A DNA stretch of 11,083 nt from Prevotellaceae bacterium. GTDB taxonomy: Bacteria; Bacteroidota; Bacteroidia; Bacteroidales; Bacteroidaceae. Position 1 is the first letter of the stretch. Every line of letters begins with the position of its first letter. Made by a program: the position numbers and the translations under genes. Shown piece after piece: positions 2,513 through 11,083 of the stretch. The DNA lies in NCBI GenBank assembly GCA_030523505.1, contig JAUNIK010000050.1:1-11083 (forward strand), read 5' to 3'. The notes below the pieces were generated by a model. The model worked only from the letters and a program-made list of their open reading frames with translations. It made no database searches and was not told where the DNA came from.

Positions 2513-5500
2513 ATGCGAAAATTTGAGATTTCAAGATTTGCGATGCTCGCAGTGTTCCTCCTTCTGTCAGTCTCTGCATTTGCACAGAAGGTAAAGGTCA
2601 CGGGTATCGTCATTGACGACCAGTATCAGGAACCGCTTACTGGCGTTACAGTAAAAGAGAAGGGATCCACGAATGGTGTTATCACTGATGTTGACGGTAA
2701 CTTCACGATAGAAGTACCAGCAAAGGGTACCCTCGTGTTCACTTATATGGGCTTCGCAGAACAAGAAGTCGCATTGAACAACCGAAAAGAACTCACTATC
2801 ATCATGCACACAGAGTCGAAACAGCTAGAAGAACTGGTTGTCATCGGCTATGGTGTACAGCGCAAGAGTGATGTCACTGGTTCTATAGCCAGCATCTCGG
2901 GCAAGGATATTAACAACCAGCCTGTATCTGGAACCTTGCAGGCTTTGCAAGGCCGTGCTGCCGGCGTCACCATCATCCAGAACACCGGTGCTCCTGGTTC
3001 GAACACCACTATCAAGGTACGTGGTACCGGTACTGTCAACGATTCCGACCCTCTCTACGTTGTCGATGGTTTTGTTGTTGACAACATCGACTACCTCAAT
3101 CCTAACGACATTGAGAATGTGGAGATTCTCAAGGATGCCGCGTCGAGTGCCGTTTACGGTTCACGTGCAGCCAACGGTGTTGTTGCCATAACAACCAAGA
3201 GCGGTAAGGAGGGTAAAACCAAGATTACCTATGATGGTTATTTCGGCATTGCTAATCCATGGAAAACGATAGAAGTGATGGGACTTGAGGACTATGCACT
3301 CCTCAAAGACTACATCAACAATGAACCCCGCTACTCTGTAGACGGCAAACTCTACCAATCCTATGCTAACGGTGTAGATGCCTCGGGTGGTTATATTTAC
3401 GATGATCATAAAGCCTACCTGCTTGATACCATACGTAACAACGGATGCTCAAACTGGTGGGACGCTATAACACAAACCGGTACAAAGCAGCAACATGCTG
3501 TGAGCATATCAGGTGGTACAAACAAAATGCAGTATCTTGCCAGTGCAAGCTACTATGATGAAAGAGGTATCGTTCAGACTTCAAACTACCAGCGTTTCAA
3601 CGGCCGCGCAAATATCAAGGCCGAACTGGCTAAATGGCTGAACCTCACTACCAACATTACATACACTAACGAGAATCGCTCAGGCGTACCTGAAGGTTCG
3701 GCTTCCATCCTGAAACATGCTCTCTACGAGAGCCCGATGACTCTTCTCAAGGATAACAAGGGGTATTGGTACTCAAGCAATCCTATAGCCGTCCTCGATC
3801 GCAATCACGACAAGATGAACCGCGACCGTCTTGAGATGAACCTCTCGTTGGATGCGAAACTATGCAAACTGCTCAACTATCAGTTCAAGGTGTCGTATTA
3901 CACAACACCTCAGCAGAACAGTTCATTCACTGAGGTTGCAAAACTTGATGAAGATTTCACTTCAAGCGACCGATCTACCGTATACGTACAGAACTCACGC
4001 GTAAACAAATGGGAGATTAACAACCTCTTGACCTTCCTATGGAATAATGATGTGCACAGCATCACCATTCTCGCAGGTCAAACAGCCGAAGGCTACAAGC
4101 GTTCATTCCAGCAGTCGTACCGTTCGGGTACACCTTCCAACGCTGAGAATTTCCAGTATCTTTCTTCGGCTTATATTGCTGACAAGACCTATGGATACCC
4201 AACAGAGTGGACAGCTCTTGGCTTCATCGGCCGTATCAACTATTCGCACCTTGACCGCTACCTTCTCCAGATGAATATCCGCGCCGATGGCTCTTCTAAA
4301 TTCGCAAGCAATAACCGCTGGGGTGTATTCCCATCAGTTTCCCTTGGTTGGAAATTCTCTAACGAACCTTTCATGAAGAATGCCACATGGTTATCAAGCG
4401 GTAAGCTGCGTGTGGGTTGGGGTAAGCTCGGTAACAACCGTATCGATGAGCTCTCACGCTACACATATCTCACCTCTGGCTTCAATTATTCCTATGGCAC
4501 AGGAAACTCAAGCACATACCAAGGTGTCACAGCCACTGTTATCGGTAACGACGGTATCGTATGGGAGAAGAGTGAGAACCTCAACGCTGGTATTGACCTC
4601 AGTTTCCTCGATTCACGCTTGCAAGTTACCTTCGAGTACTTCAACCGCAAGACCACAGATATGCTGCTCCGCGTGCCAACCGTTTCTTCAGCAGGCCTTG
4701 ACTCTTCACCAATGACAAATGCTGGTTCAGTAAAGAACTATGGATGGGAGTCGGAAGTAAAGTGGCGCGACCATATCGGCAAGGACTGGCGCTATGAACT
4801 TGGATTCAATGTGTCATGGACACGCAACAAGGTAACATCGCTCGGTACTGGCAACGAACCTATCTACGGAGCCTACATCAGTGATCTCTCAATGGCAGGC
4901 TACGTAACAAAGACAGCTGTAGGTATGCCTATCGGAGCCTACTACGGATATGTAACCGATGGTATCTTCAATAACTGGGACGAGGTGGAGTCAAGCGTGC
5001 AGTACGAGCCTGGCAAGAACCGCAACGAACAGACAACACGTCCTGGAGACTTCCGCTTCAAGGATCTCAACGGCGACGGTCTTATCACTGCAGAGGACCG
5101 CACCTACCTCGGTTCGTCACTTCCAAACTTCGTATTCGGTATTCCTCTCTCTGTTGGTTTCAAGAACTGGGATCTCAACTTATTCTTCCAGGGACAGACC
5201 GGCAACAAGATTTTCAATGTGATGGACTACTATCTTTGCAATGCCGCCAACGGCAACGTATATGCCGACATCAGAGAGAAGCATTGGTCGGACGGTGGTG
5301 AGGATGTGCAGGGACATTCATTCTGGCCTGCTAACTACAACGCCACAGTGCCTGACCTCAGCAGTAACGATGCTGCCAACAACTTCCGCGCAAGCGATTT
5401 CTTCATTAAGGATGGTTCTTATCTCCGTCTGAAGCAGTTGGCCCTCACCTACAACTTCCCTCAGAGCATCCTCAACAAGTTGCACATCAGCAACCTCGCC

Positions 5501-5668
5501 GTTTCGCTTACAGGCTATAACCTCCTGACCTTCACTGGTTATGATGGTATGGACCCTGAGGTAGGTAAGGTGGTAGGAACCGAAACCAACAACCTCTCAA
5601 TGGGTGTTGACTATGGTAACTATCCACAGGCTCGTTCGTTTACATTTGGTGTTAAACTCGGTATCTAA
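2513..5668 (+). CDS. susC: SusC/RagA-family TonB-dependent outer membrane transporter
   Basis: This 1051-residue outer membrane protein imports oligosaccharides, or less often peptides, captured by its SusD partner, powered by TonB-ExbBD. A signal peptide ends near SAFA-Q (24-25). Residues about 28-98 form the carboxypeptidase-D regulatory-like domain typical of SusC proteins. A TonB-box-like stretch and plug start follow (EELVVIGYGVQRKSDVTGSI, 106-125), and the plug domain runs to about 228 with the family motifs GAPGSNTTIKVRGTGT, LYVVDG and DAASSAVYGSRAANGVV. The remainder is the 22-strand barrel type, including a conserved DLNGDGLITAEDR segment at about 851-863, and it ends in an outer-membrane-type strand (SFTFGVKLGI). 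No STN domain precedes the plug, so it is not an anti-sigma-coupled transducer type. Length is normal for the family and no frameshift is seen. The start at 2513 gives the best signal peptide; Met11 is an alternative. The SusD gene follows 18 bases downstream. The substrate cannot be read from this protein. Confidence 0.97.
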   Translation: MRKFEISRFAMLAVFLLLSVSAFAQKVKVTGIVIDDQYQEPLTGVTVKEKGSTNGVITDVDGNFTIEVPAKGTLVFTYMGFAEQEVALNNRKELTIIMHTESKQLEELVVIGYGVQRKSDVTGSIASISGKDINNQPVSGTLQALQGRAAGVTIIQNTGAPGSNTTIKVRGTGTVNDSDPLYVVDGFVVDNIDYLNPNDIENVEILKDAASSAVYGSRAANGVVAITTKSGKEGKTKITYDGYFGIANPWKTIEVMGLEDYALLKDYINNEPRYSVDGKLYQSYANGVDASGGYIYDDHKAYLLDTIRNNGCSNWWDAITQTGTKQQHAVSISGGTNKMQYLASASYYDERGIVQTSNYQRFNGRANIKAELAKWLNLTTNITYTNENRSGVPEGSASILKHALYESPMTLLKDNKGYWYSSNPIAVLDRNHDKMNRDRLEMNLSLDAKLCKLLNYQFKVSYYTTPQQNSSFTEVAKLDEDFTSSDRSTVYVQNSRVNKWEINNLLTFLWNNDVHSITILAGQTAEGYKRSFQQSYRSGTPSNAENFQYLSSAYIADKTYGYPTEWTALGFIGRINYSHLDRYLLQMNIRADGSSKFASNNRWGVFPSVSLGWKFSNEPFMKNATWLSSGKLRVGWGKLGNNRIDELSRYTYLTSGFNYSYGTGNSSTYQGVTATVIGNDGIVWEKSENLNAGIDLSFLDSRLQVTFEYFNRKTTDMLLRVPTVSSAGLDSSPMTNAGSVKNYGWESEVKWRDHIGKDWRYELGFNVSWTRNKVTSLGTGNEPIYGAYISDLSMAGYVTKTAVGMPIGAYYGYVTDGIFNNWDEVESSVQYEPGKNRNEQTTRPGDFRFKDLNGDGLITAEDRTYLGSSLPNFVFGIPLSVGFKNWDLNLFFQGQTGNKIFNVMDYYLCNAANGNVYADIREKHWSDGGEDVQGHSFWPANYNATVPDLSSNDAANNFRASDFFIKDGSYLRLKQLALTYNFPQSILNKLHISNLAVSLTGYNLLTFTGYDGMDPEVGKVVGTETNNLSMGVDYGNYPQARSFTFGVKLGI

Positions 5669-5686: not shown

Positions 5687-7384
5687 ATGAAAAAGATATT
5701 ATCATTAGTTTCACTTATTGTGGCCGCTCTTACTTTGAGCTCTTGTTCCGACTTCCTCGACAAGGAAATCCAGGGCTATGCCACAGACGAGAACTATTAC
5801 GACACACAATATAAAATGCAAACCGCTCTGAATGCCGCATACGACATTCTCCAGTCTGACGAATACTGGGATCAGGAGTGGCGATTCGGTGAAGGTATGG
5901 GCGACAATGTACGTAATGTCGACGAAGGCCTTGCATCACAGATGGGACAGCTGGTACTGTTCCGATTCACCACTTCCAACACATGGATTCTTCAGCGCTG
6001 GCAGGTGAACTACAAGGGTATACATCGCGCAAACCAGGTCATTGCCAACATCAACCGTGTGAAGCTGTCTACCACACAGTATGACGCATATACACAAATA
6101 CGCTATATACTCGCACAGGCTAAGTTCCTACGTGCCCTCTACTATTTCAACCTCGTGAAGTCGTTTGGTGGCGTGCCAATCCGACCTGAGACTGAGACCG
6201 TGGAGAATCTCGTCATCCCTCGTTCAACAAAAGAGGAGGTTTACGCATATATCGAAAAAGACCTGCGTGAGGCTGCTATCATGCTTCCTACCGGTTATGT
6301 CAACACTACCGACTTCGGTAAGGTTACCAAAGGTGCTGTCGTTGGTCTGCTTATGAAGGTACTCCTTTATGAAGCAAAGCCAGGCGTTCCTTCTGAGAAA
6401 TGGCAGGAGTTGAAACGCATTGGTGACTATATGGTTGGCGGTAAAGCCATGACCAATGCAGAAATGCTTCAGTGGGATGGAGAAGAAGATTGGGAAGCAC
6501 TTCGTCAGCGTCTATGGTTCAAGCCAAAGAACCTCAACACTGTGAACGATCCATACGAGACATCCGATGCCATACTCGACCCATTGAGTGAGACTTATAC
6601 TCTCGAATACAAGGACATGTACGGTGCAGCTCTGCATGGAGGCGACAAATGGGCTTATGTATATCAGTTCTATGGCGATGGCGAATTCTGCAAGGGTTCT
6701 GTCTTCGAGGTAGTATTCAAAGAGAGTGCCGACGGCACCAGCGGCGATACCAATGAGGGAGCCGGAATTGAACTTTTCAACACTGGCAATGTTGCAATGT
6801 ACGGCACAGCAGCCATCATCAACGATATCTTCGGTACCGATCCTCGAAAGATATACACCATACATCATCAGGAGAACACACCTGACGGAGAATCATGGCA
6901 AGGTGGCGAGGGACGTTACGTTTCGCTGAAATGGTATACTCCTAAGAAGGATAAGCCTCTCTATGCTGGTGACAACGGTAAGAATTTCCGACTGATTAGA
7001 TGGGCTGACATAAAACTTATCTATGCAGAGGCACTCAACGAATGTGGTGACCGTGAGAATTCCCTGAAGCACCTTAACGACTGCAAGGCACAGGCAAATA
7101 CTATCAACTCGTCAACCAACCTCTATTCCGCAGGTGGCTATGGTTACATACGCGACCAGATTTATCTTGAACGACGCATAGAACTCTGTTTTGAGTTCGA
7201 CCGCTACTTCGACCTTGTACGTCAGGGCCGCGCAGCAGAGGTAATGCACAACTATGGCAACACTATCGGACAGGCCAACAGACGTGGTGCTTATTTCCGT
7301 GAAGGTGTGAATGAACTGCTTCCTATACCACAGACAGAGATAGACGTGTCAAATGGTGTCGTAGAGCAGAACTATGGTTACTAA
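5687..7384 (+). CDS. susD: SusD/RagB-family glycan-binding outer membrane lipoprotein
   Basis: This 565-residue lipoprotein is the lid and binding partner of the preceding SusC. Its signal ends in LTLSSC with lipidation expected at Cys20. The following SDFLDKE is typical of SusD proteins and fits surface export. Family landmarks appear in order: the N-terminal helical region with AQAKFLRALYYFNLVKSFGG (143-162) followed by VPI, the EVYAYIEKDLREA helix (184-196), RWADIKLIYAEALNE (438-452), an LERRIELCFEFDRYFDLVRQ block (494-513), and the closing LLPIPQTEID (544-553). This is the SusD-like N-terminal plus RagB/SusD C-terminal pairing with TPR-like helices. The region of about 260-430 between them is the variable part that usually shapes the ligand site, and its aromatic residues (W263, W269, W277, W322, Y325, W404, W416) are candidates for sugar stacking. 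The third lipoprotein begins 21 bases downstream, so co-transcription is likely. Confidence 0.96.
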   Translation: MKKILSLVSLIVAALTLSSCSDFLDKEIQGYATDENYYDTQYKMQTALNAAYDILQSDEYWDQEWRFGEGMGDNVRNVDEGLASQMGQLVLFRFTTSNTWILQRWQVNYKGIHRANQVIANINRVKLSTTQYDAYTQIRYILAQAKFLRALYYFNLVKSFGGVPIRPETETVENLVIPRSTKEEVYAYIEKDLREAAIMLPTGYVNTTDFGKVTKGAVVGLLMKVLLYEAKPGVPSEKWQELKRIGDYMVGGKAMTNAEMLQWDGEEDWEALRQRLWFKPKNLNTVNDPYETSDAILDPLSETYTLEYKDMYGAALHGGDKWAYVYQFYGDGEFCKGSVFEVVFKESADGTSGDTNEGAGIELFNTGNVAMYGTAAIINDIFGTDPRKIYTIHHQENTPDGESWQGGEGRYVSLKWYTPKKDKPLYAGDNGKNFRLIRWADIKLIYAEALNECGDRENSLKHLNDCKAQANTINSSTNLYSAGGYGYIRDQIYLERRIELCFEFDRYFDLVRQGRAAEVMHNYGNTIGQANRRGAYFREGVNELLPIPQTEIDVSNGVVEQNYGY

Positions 7385-7405: not shown

Positions 7406-8380
7406 ATGAAAAGATCTATATATACAATAATGTTTGTGTGCGTAGCAATGCTGCTTGCTTCATGCAGCAGCGAGGACGAACAAGCACGCACACCTGTAGC
7501 CACAATCGATATTGACAAGACAACACTCGTCACCAATGAGTCAATGGAACTGCACTTCACCGGCGTTGCCGACCAGGTGGTTGTATTCACCGGCGATGAG
7601 GGGCATGTCTACCAAGAGTTCGGCCACGGTGATATAAAGGAGAACACAGGTATCGTTGTCAACAAAGGACTCTTCACCTATTCATACGCTGTGCCGGGAG
7701 TGTTCCATGTGGTTGTTGTGGCAAGCACATACAACACATATTCCGGCAATGGGCAGAAACAGGCAAAGTATGAGTTTGACATAACAGTGAAGGATGATGT
7801 AAACACAATAGACAACATTTCCTTCCAGTCACAGGCTCACAACGTATTCTATGCTCAGCAAGCAAATGATCATGATTGGGTGTTCTGCATTCCTACCATG
7901 GAAGTCTATGGCAACAAGAATGTGAAAACAAACGTAACAAAGCGCCCTCTTATATTCGACATTGCATCTGACTCAGCAAAAGTGTTCATTGACGATGTTG
8001 AATACTCATCGCGCTCTAACTACAATCTGGAGGACAAACATGCCATAAAGGTAATCTCCCATGAAGGAAATGTCCGTGAGTATACGCTATGGTCGTTGCG
8101 TTATCCTGAGTTTAGCTCTATCTCAGTCGGTGGTGCAAACGGAGAACTCATACGCGATGCCTTCAACCAGGATATTATCACATATAAGTTCACTGGTGTA
8201 GCTGGCACCGACACGATGGCTGAGAGTCACGAAGACAATGTTCAGTTCTTGGTCAATGGTGCAGTGCCTACCTCACCTATCGACTATGCTGACACTGACA
8301 ATGTATACACTCTGGTACGAACAAGCGTGGAGAACGAGAATATCAAGGCCGTGACTCGCATAAAATTCGTATTTGAATGA
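7406..8380 (+). CDS. Surface lipoprotein in the SusE/SGBP position, probable glycan-binding protein
   Basis: This 324-residue lipoprotein has a signal ending in LLASC, lipidation at Cys20 and the acidic stretch SSEDE directly after it, which matches the Bacteroidota lipoprotein export signal for surface exposure. The mature protein looks all-beta. An Ig/PKD-like N-terminal domain (about 31-130) contains FTGVADQVVVFTGDEGHVYQ (51-70), reminiscent of DUF5017-type domains. A second module spans about 135-232 (NISFQSQAHN, then YTLWSLRYPE at 226-235), and a third spans about 235-324. No catalytic motif is visible. Proteins directly after susCD that lack enzymatic motifs are often surface glycan-binding proteins, and that is the most likely role; sequence in this class diverges quickly, so the name rests mainly on position, lipidation and beta content. 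It is probably the last gene of the susCD operon, since a weak terminator and a new promoter follow. Confidence 0.8.
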   Translation: MKRSIYTIMFVCVAMLLASCSSEDEQARTPVATIDIDKTTLVTNESMELHFTGVADQVVVFTGDEGHVYQEFGHGDIKENTGIVVNKGLFTYSYAVPGVFHVVVVASTYNTYSGNGQKQAKYEFDITVKDDVNTIDNISFQSQAHNVFYAQQANDHDWVFCIPTMEVYGNKNVKTNVTKRPLIFDIASDSAKVFIDDVEYSSRSNYNLEDKHAIKVISHEGNVREYTLWSLRYPEFSSISVGGANGELIRDAFNQDIITYKFTGVAGTDTMAESHEDNVQFLVNGAVPTSPIDYADTDNVYTLVRTSVENENIKAVTRIKFVFE

Positions 8381-8406
8381 TTCTGCAGGAAGATTATTTC
8401 TTCATA

Positions 8407-8427
8407 AAAAAGGATAAATTCCTTTTT
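8407..8427 (+). terminator. Weak intrinsic terminator after the third lipoprotein gene
   Basis: AAAAAGGA (8407-8414) pairs with TCCTTTTT (8420-8427) around a 5-base loop, with the T-run built into the 3' arm. The stem is AT-rich and weak but symmetrical. It sits between the stop at 8380 and the next promoter at 8441, where a transcript end is expected. Confidence 0.5.
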
Positions 8428-8440
8428 CTACCGAATTAAT

Positions 8441-8471
8441 TTTGATTTTACCGCAAATTTAGCTAACTTTG
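8441..8471 (+). promoter_or_regulatory. Promoter of the GH93-like gene (TTTG-N19-TAACTTTG)
   Basis: TTTG at 8441-8444 and TAACTTTG at 8464-8471 are separated by exactly 19 bases, a full match to the Bacteroidota vegetative promoter consensus. Transcription should begin near 8478, giving a leader of about 85 nt. The spacer and the first three bases of the -7 box lie within the left arm of the inverted repeat at 8447-8519, so the promoter looks controllable through that repeat. Confidence 0.75.
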
Positions 8472-8519
8472 TATGCCTTATCGTTTAAGACCTATTGTTT
8501 TAGCTAATTTGCGGTAAAA
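8447..8519. repeat. Large inverted repeat across the promoter and leader of the GH93-like gene
   Basis: The left arm 8447-8466 (TTTTACCGCAAATTTAGCTA through the next A) is complementary to the right arm 8500-8519 (TTAGCTAATTTGCGGTAAAA) at all 20 positions apart from one extra T in the left arm. The arms enclose 33 bases, 8467-8499. The left arm lies upstream of the predicted transcription start, so the pairing cannot form in the transcript made from this promoter. It would form only in DNA or in read-through RNA from the susCD operon. This favours a pair of protein-binding sites in opposite orientation, or recombination sites, over an RNA hairpin. Confidence 0.8.
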
Positions 8520-8563
8520 ATATAAGAACCTATTTGCTATTTTCTTAAATTCAATAAAAGCTC

Positions 8564-10582
8564 ATGTTCAGAACATCACTGATATCGTATAACACATCAC
8601 TGTTCGCCACTGGATGCAAAAGACTGCTTATACTTGCGGTTATTATGATTGGCGGAATGTTTGAGGTGCATGCAGAAGGTGCAAAGTCACCTGCACCATT
8701 GCAGTCTAACGCCGAAAGTGTGGCTCCATATAAAGGCTCACGCATTTTCTGGGACACCACAACCCGTCAGACTGTATTCAACAATGGAGGGTATTCACGT
8801 ATCATCCAGCTACAGGACGGACGACTGATGGCTGTATGTGAACATACAGGTATCAATATAGCCTTCAGTTCCAATATGGGCAAATCATGGACAAGCCCTA
8901 TTAAAATTGTCAACAATCCAAGTAGAATTAATGAATGTGTGCCCGATCTCATCCAATTGTCTGATGGGACTATCATCGTAGCATACAATCCTCGCCCACA
9001 AGAACCATATTCTGAGGACCGCAAGTTTGGCATACGTTGCAAGTATTCCACCGATAATGGTGCAACATGGAGTGAGGAAATTTTCGTGCATGATGCCTAT
9101 CACACCTTTGCTGACGGTTGCTGGGAACCATCAATGCTGGAATTGCCTTCTGGAGAACTGCAACTTTATTTTGCCGATGAAGGGCCATATACAAACAGTA
9201 ACGAGCAACAGATATCTCTCACCCGTTCGTTCGATAAGGGCAAGACATGGTCAACTCCTCAAAAGGTAAGTTTCCGTGCGGGATATCGTGATGGAATGCC
9301 AGCACCGATACTTTTGAAAGACCAGTCTGAAATTGTATATGCGTTTGAAGACAACGGCTGGGGATATGGAGACTTTTTCCCTACTACCGCTCGATGCTCC
9401 CTGGAAAAGAACTGGAATAACTATTGGGTAAACAGTAGCAGTTCAAACCGACAGAAGACACTCGACCCAGCCTATTGCCCAGCAGCCACCGGTGGTGCTC
9501 CATACCTGTGCCAGTTGCCTAATGGCGAGACTGTAATATCATGGCAGTCTACCTATAACAGCAGCACAGGCAAACTGACAATGATTACTGCCGTGGGCGA
9601 CGAGAGAGCACAGAACTTCAAGTCATTATCACATCCGTTCATCATCTCAGGTACAACATCAGTACTATGGAATTCGGTCGCTGTGATCGACACTGGTGTC
9701 GTTGTAGCTGTCGGCAGTGTTGACAATCATGTTGAAATAATAAAGGGATATCCAAAAACCATGTTTGAATGTGCATACGGCTCTCCTGTGGTTGATGGAA
9801 AGATGACAAAGAACGAGGGCTACTACAATGCCAACTGCTCACAAGTAAGAATGGGTACTGAAACAGGCACCATCACACTTTGCGACTATGCCTACGACCG
9901 CGATTCACTGTATTTCGTGGCACGTGTGTCCGACCATACTCCTATGGAATCTGGAGCCTATGCTGACGGCATACGCCTGTTCATTGAAACAGAAGGAAAA
10001 AGTGACAACCGCCCACAGACCACCACATATCAGTACTACGTGAAGCTCAATGGTACATGTACACGCCTTGTAGGCACAGGTGCTTCCTATAAAACAACAA
10101 AGTCCGACCTCGCCCATGTCTGTGTCAATGCGACTTCGTCGTATTACATCATCGAATTGGCAATCCCTTGGGAGGACATGGGACTAAGCGGTGTACCTAC
10201 CGAAAAGAATCTACGTACCAATATCGAGATTCGAAATGGCGACACCTCCGGTCTTGTCACAGAGACCATTCCTGATGCCAAAGCCAATTATCCTTGGACA
10301 TGGATGGTGCTCCACATGGCAGACATCCCGGAAGAAGATGCTGTGAAGAATATAGAAACAGATGATTCACATATTGTCATCACAGCTGATGGTAATGAAT
10401 TCAACATTCGAAGTTCCGAACCAATAGAGAATCTTACAATCTACAGCATCGACGGCCGAAAGGTGGGTTATTACAGTGGTATAGAGAATGCTTTTCGTGC
10501 ATCCTCTCCTATCCACGGCATGGCTGTAATGCAACTTGAACTGCAGAACGGTCGCACAGTAAACCGCAAGATTGTACTCTAA
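8564..10582 (+). CDS. Secreted sialidase-fold glycoside hydrolase (GH93-like) with CBM9-like domain and T9SS-type tail
   Basis: This 672-residue secreted protein has three parts. The signal peptide is unusual in having a 20-residue N-region before its hydrophobic core (21-31) and cleavage near VHA-E (37-38); Met1 is the only in-frame start that keeps it. Residues about 58-400 form a six-bladed sialidase-type propeller. Asp-boxes lie at 102-109 (SSNMGKSW, degenerate), 162-169 (STDNGATW) and 222-229 (SFDKGKTW), with an early SRI motif (R79). CWEPSMLELPSGELQLYFAD (186-205) and YRDGMPAPI (241-249) recall GH93 exo-arabinanases more than GH33 sialidases. Glu188 and Glu262 are candidate catalytic acids; this is from memory of the family, not from an alignment. 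Residues about 404-575 resemble a CBM9/DOMON-like sugar-binding domain (VVDGKMTKNE, then DRDSLYFVARVSDHTP, then ADGIRLFIET). Residues about 596-672 resemble a T9SS type A sorting tail (ENLTIYSIDGRKVG, ending RTVNRKIVL). The gene has its own promoter. Likely role: extracellular attack on the glycan imported by the SusCD pair; the substrate is unproven. Confidence 0.85.
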   Translation: MFRTSLISYNTSLFATGCKRLLILAVIMIGGMFEVHAEGAKSPAPLQSNAESVAPYKGSRIFWDTTTRQTVFNNGGYSRIIQLQDGRLMAVCEHTGINIAFSSNMGKSWTSPIKIVNNPSRINECVPDLIQLSDGTIIVAYNPRPQEPYSEDRKFGIRCKYSTDNGATWSEEIFVHDAYHTFADGCWEPSMLELPSGELQLYFADEGPYTNSNEQQISLTRSFDKGKTWSTPQKVSFRAGYRDGMPAPILLKDQSEIVYAFEDNGWGYGDFFPTTARCSLEKNWNNYWVNSSSSNRQKTLDPAYCPAATGGAPYLCQLPNGETVISWQSTYNSSTGKLTMITAVGDERAQNFKSLSHPFIISGTTSVLWNSVAVIDTGVVVAVGSVDNHVEIIKGYPKTMFECAYGSPVVDGKMTKNEGYYNANCSQVRMGTETGTITLCDYAYDRDSLYFVARVSDHTPMESGAYADGIRLFIETEGKSDNRPQTTTYQYYVKLNGTCTRLVGTGASYKTTKSDLAHVCVNATSSYYIIELAIPWEDMGLSGVPTEKNLRTNIEIRNGDTSGLVTETIPDAKANYPWTWMVLHMADIPEEDAVKNIETDDSHIVITADGNEFNIRSSEPIENLTIYSIDGRKVGYYSGIENAFRASSPIHGMAVMQLELQNGRTVNRKIVL

Positions 10583-10651: not shown

Positions 10652-11083
10652 ATGCATATGCGCCAGTTTCTTTTATCGTTCTTTCTGATTTTCACGCAAT
10701 TGGCATATCCTGCCGATTATATCTATCGTCACCTCACAAGCGACAATGGATTACCCCACCACCAGGTGCAATCGTTAATCCAGGATAAGGATGGCAATAT
10801 ATGGATTGGTACACGCAATGGATTGGCACGCTATGATGGTTACGACATAAAATGCTATTATCACAACGACAAGGATTCGACCAGCCTTAACCATAACTTC
10901 ATCCACAACCTGTTTCTCGATAGCAAGGGACAAATATGGATAGTTTCCAACGGTGGAATATGCCGTTATCAGCCAGAAACTGACAACTTCCATAGATACA
11001 AGTACATGAGCATCACCTCAATGGCTGAGACGAGCAAAGGGAAACTGGTTTGTGGTGGTTATAATTTCTGGGCATACGATGAA
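10652..11083 (+). CDS. N-terminal part of a propeller-sensor regulator, probably a hybrid two-component system (partial)
   Basis: The frame opens at ATG 10652, or at the second in-frame ATG 10658, which gives the cleaner signal peptide MRQFLLSFFLIFTQLAYPAD. It stays open for 144 codons to the window end. After the signal come two-component-regulator propeller repeats: HLTSDNGLPHHQVQSLIQDK followed by DGNIWIGTRNGLARYDGY (positions about 25-62 from the second Met), and a second unit NHNFIHNLFLDSKGQIWIVS with GGICRYQPETDNFHRY (about 78-114). This opening is that of the periplasmic sensor of Bacteroidota hybrid two-component systems, which bind an oligosaccharide released by the locus and activate susCD through a fused receiver and AraC-type domain. 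Those C-terminal parts lie outside the window, so a plain histidine kinase with the same sensor is also possible. It lies 69 bases after the GH93-like gene without a clear promoter or terminator between, so read-through is likely. Confidence 0.9.
   Translation, partial: MHMRQFLLSFFLIFTQLAYPADYIYRHLTSDNGLPHHQVQSLIQDKDGNIWIGTRNGLARYDGYDIKCYYHNDKDSTSLNHNFIHNLFLDSKGQIWIVSNGGICRYQPETDNFHRYKYMSITSMAETSKGKLVCGGYNFWAYDE

Follow-up and report, generated by a model that had tools for sequence, protein, structure and literature searches.

Bacteroidota promoters follow a consensus of a -33 and a -7 box, named in passages of PMC4747536 and PMC8748976, and part of the latter also describes the invertible promoters of Bacteroidales, in which inverted repeats lie around a TTTG/TAnnTTTG promoter. 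Palindromic DNA adjoins or overlaps promoters in another setting as well: sections of PMC4596501 and PMC10969869 present BrickBuilt of Porphyromonas gingivalis and the Correia elements of Neisseria as MITE-like intergenic palindromes that can carry promoters. Additionally, quasi-palindromes made by template switching during replication have near-identical arms that lie a short distance apart and differ by one indel (portions of PMC8604942 and PMC7202029). The locus described here, in a window of 11,083 nt (the whole stretch of DNA that was analysed), resembles each of these: a consensus promoter is associated with an intergenic inverted repeat whose arms are close together, nearly identical and different by one indel. 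Unlike the invertible promoters, the window has no invertase among the proteins scanned, its arms are unequal and their centre measures 33-46 bp, and whereas BrickBuilt and Correia elements are multi-copy, the exact palindrome of the window is single-copy in its genome. We favour, with moderate confidence, an ordinary stand-alone promoter lying under a lineage-specific quasi-palindrome that could have arisen as a dispersed element, since diverged, or by template switching. The features of the window that bear on this are as follows.

385-2202: protein with ELWxxDGT repeats
2513-5668: SusC
5687-7384: SusD
7406-8380, plus strand: open reading frame for a lipoprotein-like protein of 324 aa with a lipobox by eye, which closes the SusC/SusD run
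8407-8427, plus strand: hairpin of an A-run and a T-run with a stem of 8 bp and a loop of 5 nt, which probably terminates the upstream operon
8441-8444, plus strand: -33 box TTTG, consensus match, just outside the left arm
8445-8463: spacer of 19 nt
8446-8466, plus strand: left arm, TTTTACCGCAAATTTAGCTAA, 21 nt with one extra T
8464-8471, plus strand: -7 box TAACTTTG, consensus match, its first three bases inside the left arm
8467-8499: 33-nt centre that separates the arms, with weak self-complementarity of its own (the minus-strand fold has six pairs here)
8500-8519, minus strand: right arm, reverse complement TTTTACCGCAAATTAGCTAA, 20 nt, in the predicted 5' leader
8564-10582, plus strand: 672-aa BNR_2/sialidase-fold protein with a CBM9-like stretch (Pfam), the gene that the promoter would serve
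from 10616: start of a Reg_prop sensor, cut by the end of the window

The genes on either side of the promoter appear to belong to different transcription units. The product of 7406-8380 has DUF5017 as its only Pfam match, below the cut-off (19.8 against 28.8 bits), and the hairpin that follows it (-7.1 kcal/mol, z -3.2, equalled by none of 200 shuffles) probably marks the end of the upstream operon; it is absent from a consensus terminator scan, which asks for G-C pairs. The downstream protein matches BNR_2 well above the threshold (78.7 against 31.4 bits) and CBM9_1 exactly at it (23.4 against 23.4), its best solved relative is the sialidase 8t26 at a weak E of 0.00075, and no relative of it was found in viral contigs. 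Between the two lies an exact match to the Bacteroidota consensus, TTTG-N19-TAACTTTG at 8441-8471, with the -33 TTTG and the -7 TAnnTTTG at the 19-nt spacing of that consensus, as the preliminary description had proposed. It is the sole occurrence of TTTG-N18-20-TAnnTTTG in the window, where 0.05 would be expected and 10 of 200 shuffles held at least one, and in the genome of the window (3.32 Mb in 662 contigs, 80% complete) the N19 pattern has 91 matches compared with 6 in the reversed control. The stretch is presumably active as a promoter, with a transcription start predicted near 8478 from the position of the boxes (starts 5-10 nt past the -7 box are typical of the consensus), and the sialidase-like gene would then form a transcription unit of its own, read from an ordinary Bacteroidota promoter behind the terminator.

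The two arms pair over 14 bp exactly, then over 6 bp (AGCTAA) after the one extra T of the left arm, so that the label of a near-perfect 20-bp repeat given earlier is fair once the indel is added. The rest of the anatomy in the preliminary description was likewise borne out: the left arm runs over the spacer into the -7 box and lies outside the predicted transcript, and when the centre is inverted in silico, no TTTG-N17-21-TAnnTTTG remains on either strand of 8400-8560, which agrees with the predicted loss of the -7 box. The self-complementarity is beyond that of shuffled DNA, since the top score of 18 in 8381-8563 was reached by none of 500 dinucleotide shuffles (maximum 16). Folded as RNA, 8441-8525 gives -26.5 kcal/mol (z -6.2, equalled by 0 of 200 shuffles); the leader from 8478 by itself is no better than its shuffles (z 0.4). 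The centres of the arms are 53.5 bp apart, or about 5.1 helical turns, and a 12-nt direct repeat, TTTAGCTAAYTT, is also common to the arms, at 8458 and 8499.

Further exact copies of the arms, which might have been expected at other promoters under a common regulator, were not seen. In the genome of the window each arm occurs just once in exact form; the left-arm 14-mer with up to 2 mismatches has 10 matches, equal to the 10 of the reversed control, and the right-arm 16-mer with up to 3 mismatches has 12 matches against 7 reversed, all but the window itself with 3 mismatches. A BLAST search of the 95-bp stretch in its own genome gave E 0.147 as the next best match, and for 299 genomes of the genus, with an E-limit of 10 and no more than 3 candidates scored in each genome, the matches listed were, the window aside, all short (best E 1.6e-4). 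A 43-nt match in one of these genomes (G142, locus L045) was not counted, as it reads by eye as coding DNA on the other strand. With 330 bp as query, 3 of 60 relatives matched, namely the window itself and two over 8377-8426 only. The plasmids searched held no match, no Rfam family matched in the window, and no target-site duplication around the palindrome was evident by eye.

Orthologous loci were approached in two overlapping sets, in both of which enzyme identity was at most 63%. A scan of one genome per species yielded 21 loci, mostly from genomes named Prevotella or Prevotellaceae, many of them ruminant by isolate name, with Hoylesella oralis and Leyella lascolaii also included. Additionally, 398 genomes of the genus of the window were searched, of which 20 had a match, the window's own included, and the 31 matches led to 29 loci examined besides the window (one match was without a locus). 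A repeat over a TAnnTTTG box was found neither among the best three repeats of each of the 21 loci nor among the best two of each of the 29. Inverted repeats of at least 10 are present in 8 of the 29 loci, none over a box, and a TAnnTTTG match stands in the gap of 6, again with no repeat across it. The enzyme match starts at most 107 nt past the upstream open reading frame in 13 of the 29, none of which has a TAnnTTTG box, and the gene there is therefore probably read together with the upstream genes; the equivalent distance in the window is about 320 nt. These results indicate that promoter and palindrome together are a local arrangement and that the other promoters seen for this gene family lack a palindrome. 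The arms are thus not conserved upstream of the orthologous genes in these 21 and 29 loci, the nearest relative being 63% identical in the enzyme, an outcome that the preliminary description had itself counted as evidence against its proposals.

Two of these gaps contain inverted sequences of other kinds. One (L136) has AATTCG-type inverted stretches, seen by eye, without a TAnnTTTG box. Another (L202, ~1300-1490) carries a different palindrome, TTAGTAATTATGATT, with 15-bp arms 46 nt apart and no promoter box, and since it differs from that of the window, the gap before the enzyme gene seems to collect palindromes.

The frequency with which promoters and palindromes meet by chance was estimated in 68 contigs (the window included) of 681,491 bases, 73,876 of them noncoding by an open reading frame rule of 120 aa, with a palindromic place defined by exact arms of at least 12 and a gap of 20-100. 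There are 32 such places, 29 of them noncoding, and 62 promoter matches, 41 of them noncoding. Palindromes touch four of the 41 noncoding promoters, in one case (L357) by just three bases. Random relocation of the palindromes within noncoding DNA gave a mean of 1.67 overlaps, with four or more in 8.7% of 2000 runs (P 0.087). The overlap of palindrome and promoter is compatible with chance, although four against 1.67 leans towards enrichment; the 68 contigs were chosen for carrying promoters or repeats, and their palindrome density is for that reason no unbiased average. With intergenic palindromes this common, about two good-looking promoter repeats are to be expected among the intergenic promoters sampled. 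The repeat of the window is nevertheless the strongest (18) of the 91 promoter-downstream repeats in the genome, which have a mean of 7.4 and a standard deviation of 2.3; the next are 17, for a nearly pure A/T repeat in contig C204, and then 12.

If a protein reads the arms, a regulator bound to the two opposed sites would block RNA polymerase either directly at the left arm or through a small loop. Such an operator pair would suit the position of the left arm, across the spacer and into the -7 box, the near-integral number of helical turns between the arms and the rank of the repeat among the 91 promoters, and the gene belongs to a carbohydrate locus and adjoins a Reg_prop sensor. Against it are the want of a second exact arm copy, near-copies at 10 and 12 beside controls of 10 and 7, and the related loci examined, which have no repeat over the box. 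Moreover, in Bacteroides direct repeats are the predicted sites of hybrid two-component regulators (a portion of PMC3878776), and this would apply to the adjoining Reg_prop sensor if it is one of them, a point on which its truncated sequence is silent. The arms do have the direct repeat TTTAGCTAAYTT in common, but it sits over the -7 box, not upstream of it. The operator proposal of the preliminary description gained no support from copies, relatives or the overlap statistics, and we regard it as rather unlikely, though the most probable after the incidental overlap. A role of the palindrome in RNA appears less probable still, and is in our view improbable: read-through transcripts from the upstream operon would form the 20-bp hairpin, which would end, protect or process the message, and transcripts from the gene's own promoter would carry the right arm only. 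The folding energy of 8441-8525, set beside the unremarkable leader, is in its favour. It requires read-through past the terminator-like hairpin just upstream, the stem is not followed by a T-run, and neither an Rfam match in the window nor conservation in the related loci accompanies it.

The preliminary description had also proposed a phase switch, in which a recombinase acting on the arms would flip the centre, the present orientation being ON. An inverted repeat is indeed present, neither strand carries such a promoter once the centre is inverted, and the arms fall within the 10-40 nt given for inverton repeats (a passage of PMC11892184). None of the six proteins of the window, compared with Pfam up to the end of the contig at 11,083, is a recombinase, and according to part of one survey all of its invertible resistance-gene promoters lie just downstream of an invertase gene (PMC8748976). 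The arms are unequal owing to the indel and no other copy of an arm was found. A centre of 33-46 bp is very short for a protein-made loop. Viral contigs contained neither the forward nor the inverted form of the promoter, and that search is therefore uninformative on flipping. The switch gained nothing from these results, and we consider it very improbable. A flip without a recombinase, in which template switching between the arms at the replication fork would invert the 33-bp centre, remove the -7 box and turn the enzyme gene off and on at a raised mutation rate, is given the same very small chance; the one-base indel by which the arms differ would then have been left by such flips. The repeat is missing in the relatives examined and such repeats are common between genes, so a chance overlap is likelier than a genetic switch. 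Since an operator lacks recurrence and conservation, a switch lacks a recombinase and the RNA reading needs read-through, the promoter is best taken as ordinary and the palindrome as most likely incidental, with no dedicated regulator presumed to read it. Belief in an operator or a switch calls for recurrence, conservation or binding data. Were the arms to regulate after all, they would represent a control layer for a single gene, gained in one lineage as the enzyme gene left the operon.

On the preferred explanation, that of an ordinary promoter incidentally overlapped by a lineage-specific quasi-palindrome of 74 bp, the palindrome may be either a much diverged member of the scattered intergenic palindromes or an inverted duplication of local DNA; its origin can be suggested from the following comparisons. 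Many palindromes of the genome are members of dispersed families whose arms are periodic, AATTACGCGAATTACAC and AGAATTAGAGAATTAGAG being examples. The right arm of the window has at its end GCGGTAAAAATAT, a sequence that recurs exactly in the genome only at the ends of four dispersed elements of one family. Compared with this family, 8416-8565 beats 396, 400 and 400 of 400 shuffles in three scorings, mostly through its right half, and a gapped alignment of 8428-8565 with one copy spans most of the element. The family was found through the shared stretch, so that this test is not an independent one, and the left half alone does not stand out, its score being reached in 23, 43 and 58 of 400 shuffles. 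Of 117 AT-rich stretches of the genome, family members and the window excepted, one that is unrelated (L002) outscores the window under one of the three scorings (218 against 214); of 296 stretches of the genus, three from a single locus (L064) do so under another. The match to this family (AATTCGCG) is weak both by profile (E 0.42) and by BLAST (E 0.288). Descent of the palindrome from the GCGGTAAAAATAT-ended family is possible on these alignments, and so is its formation by template switching that copied local DNA in inverted form.

Palindromes of the form ACCRCRAATT-N46-76-AATTYGYGGT occur in 26 of 299 genomes of the genus, with 0 in the reversed control, and nearly all of them are 9-nt-periodic by eye. 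The window is like the ACCRCGAATT...AATTCGYGGT palindromes in having ACCGC-AATT outer ends that face each other at a 66-nt span, and in the GCGGTAAAAATAT end; unlike them, its arms are without 9-nt-periodic AATTCG units and are not clearly members of this group. Four strings of the periodic palindromes had no match in the literature searched. The palindromes themselves, collected from these 26 genomes (L140-L165), are 66-97 nt long with 9-nt-periodic arms (AATTNNNCG), and their arms vary between copies and are mostly still complementary, as if they had been corrected against each other.

Other repeats were observed in the same genome. Upstream of susC, at ~2273-2474 of the window, lies a palindromic dispersed element with nested inverted arms of the AGTTAAGGGGAGTTATGGGA type and the ends AAGTTTCGGAAGTT and AACTTCCGAAACTT; it has 39 matches in the genome including itself, three of them 90-91% identical over ~190-200 bp. 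Composite elements (L166-L195) with the ends GGWARYGATATAC...GGCACA and inner palindromes CGCGAATTACAC or AGAATTAGAGAATT look like a MITE family and have 46 matches in the genome. A second promoter inside a long inverted repeat, of like layout and nearly pure A/T, is found in contig C204 (L101 1501-1586; G000:C204:13518-13603), where one 17-bp arm extends from the -33 box across the spacer and the other lies just before a start codon.
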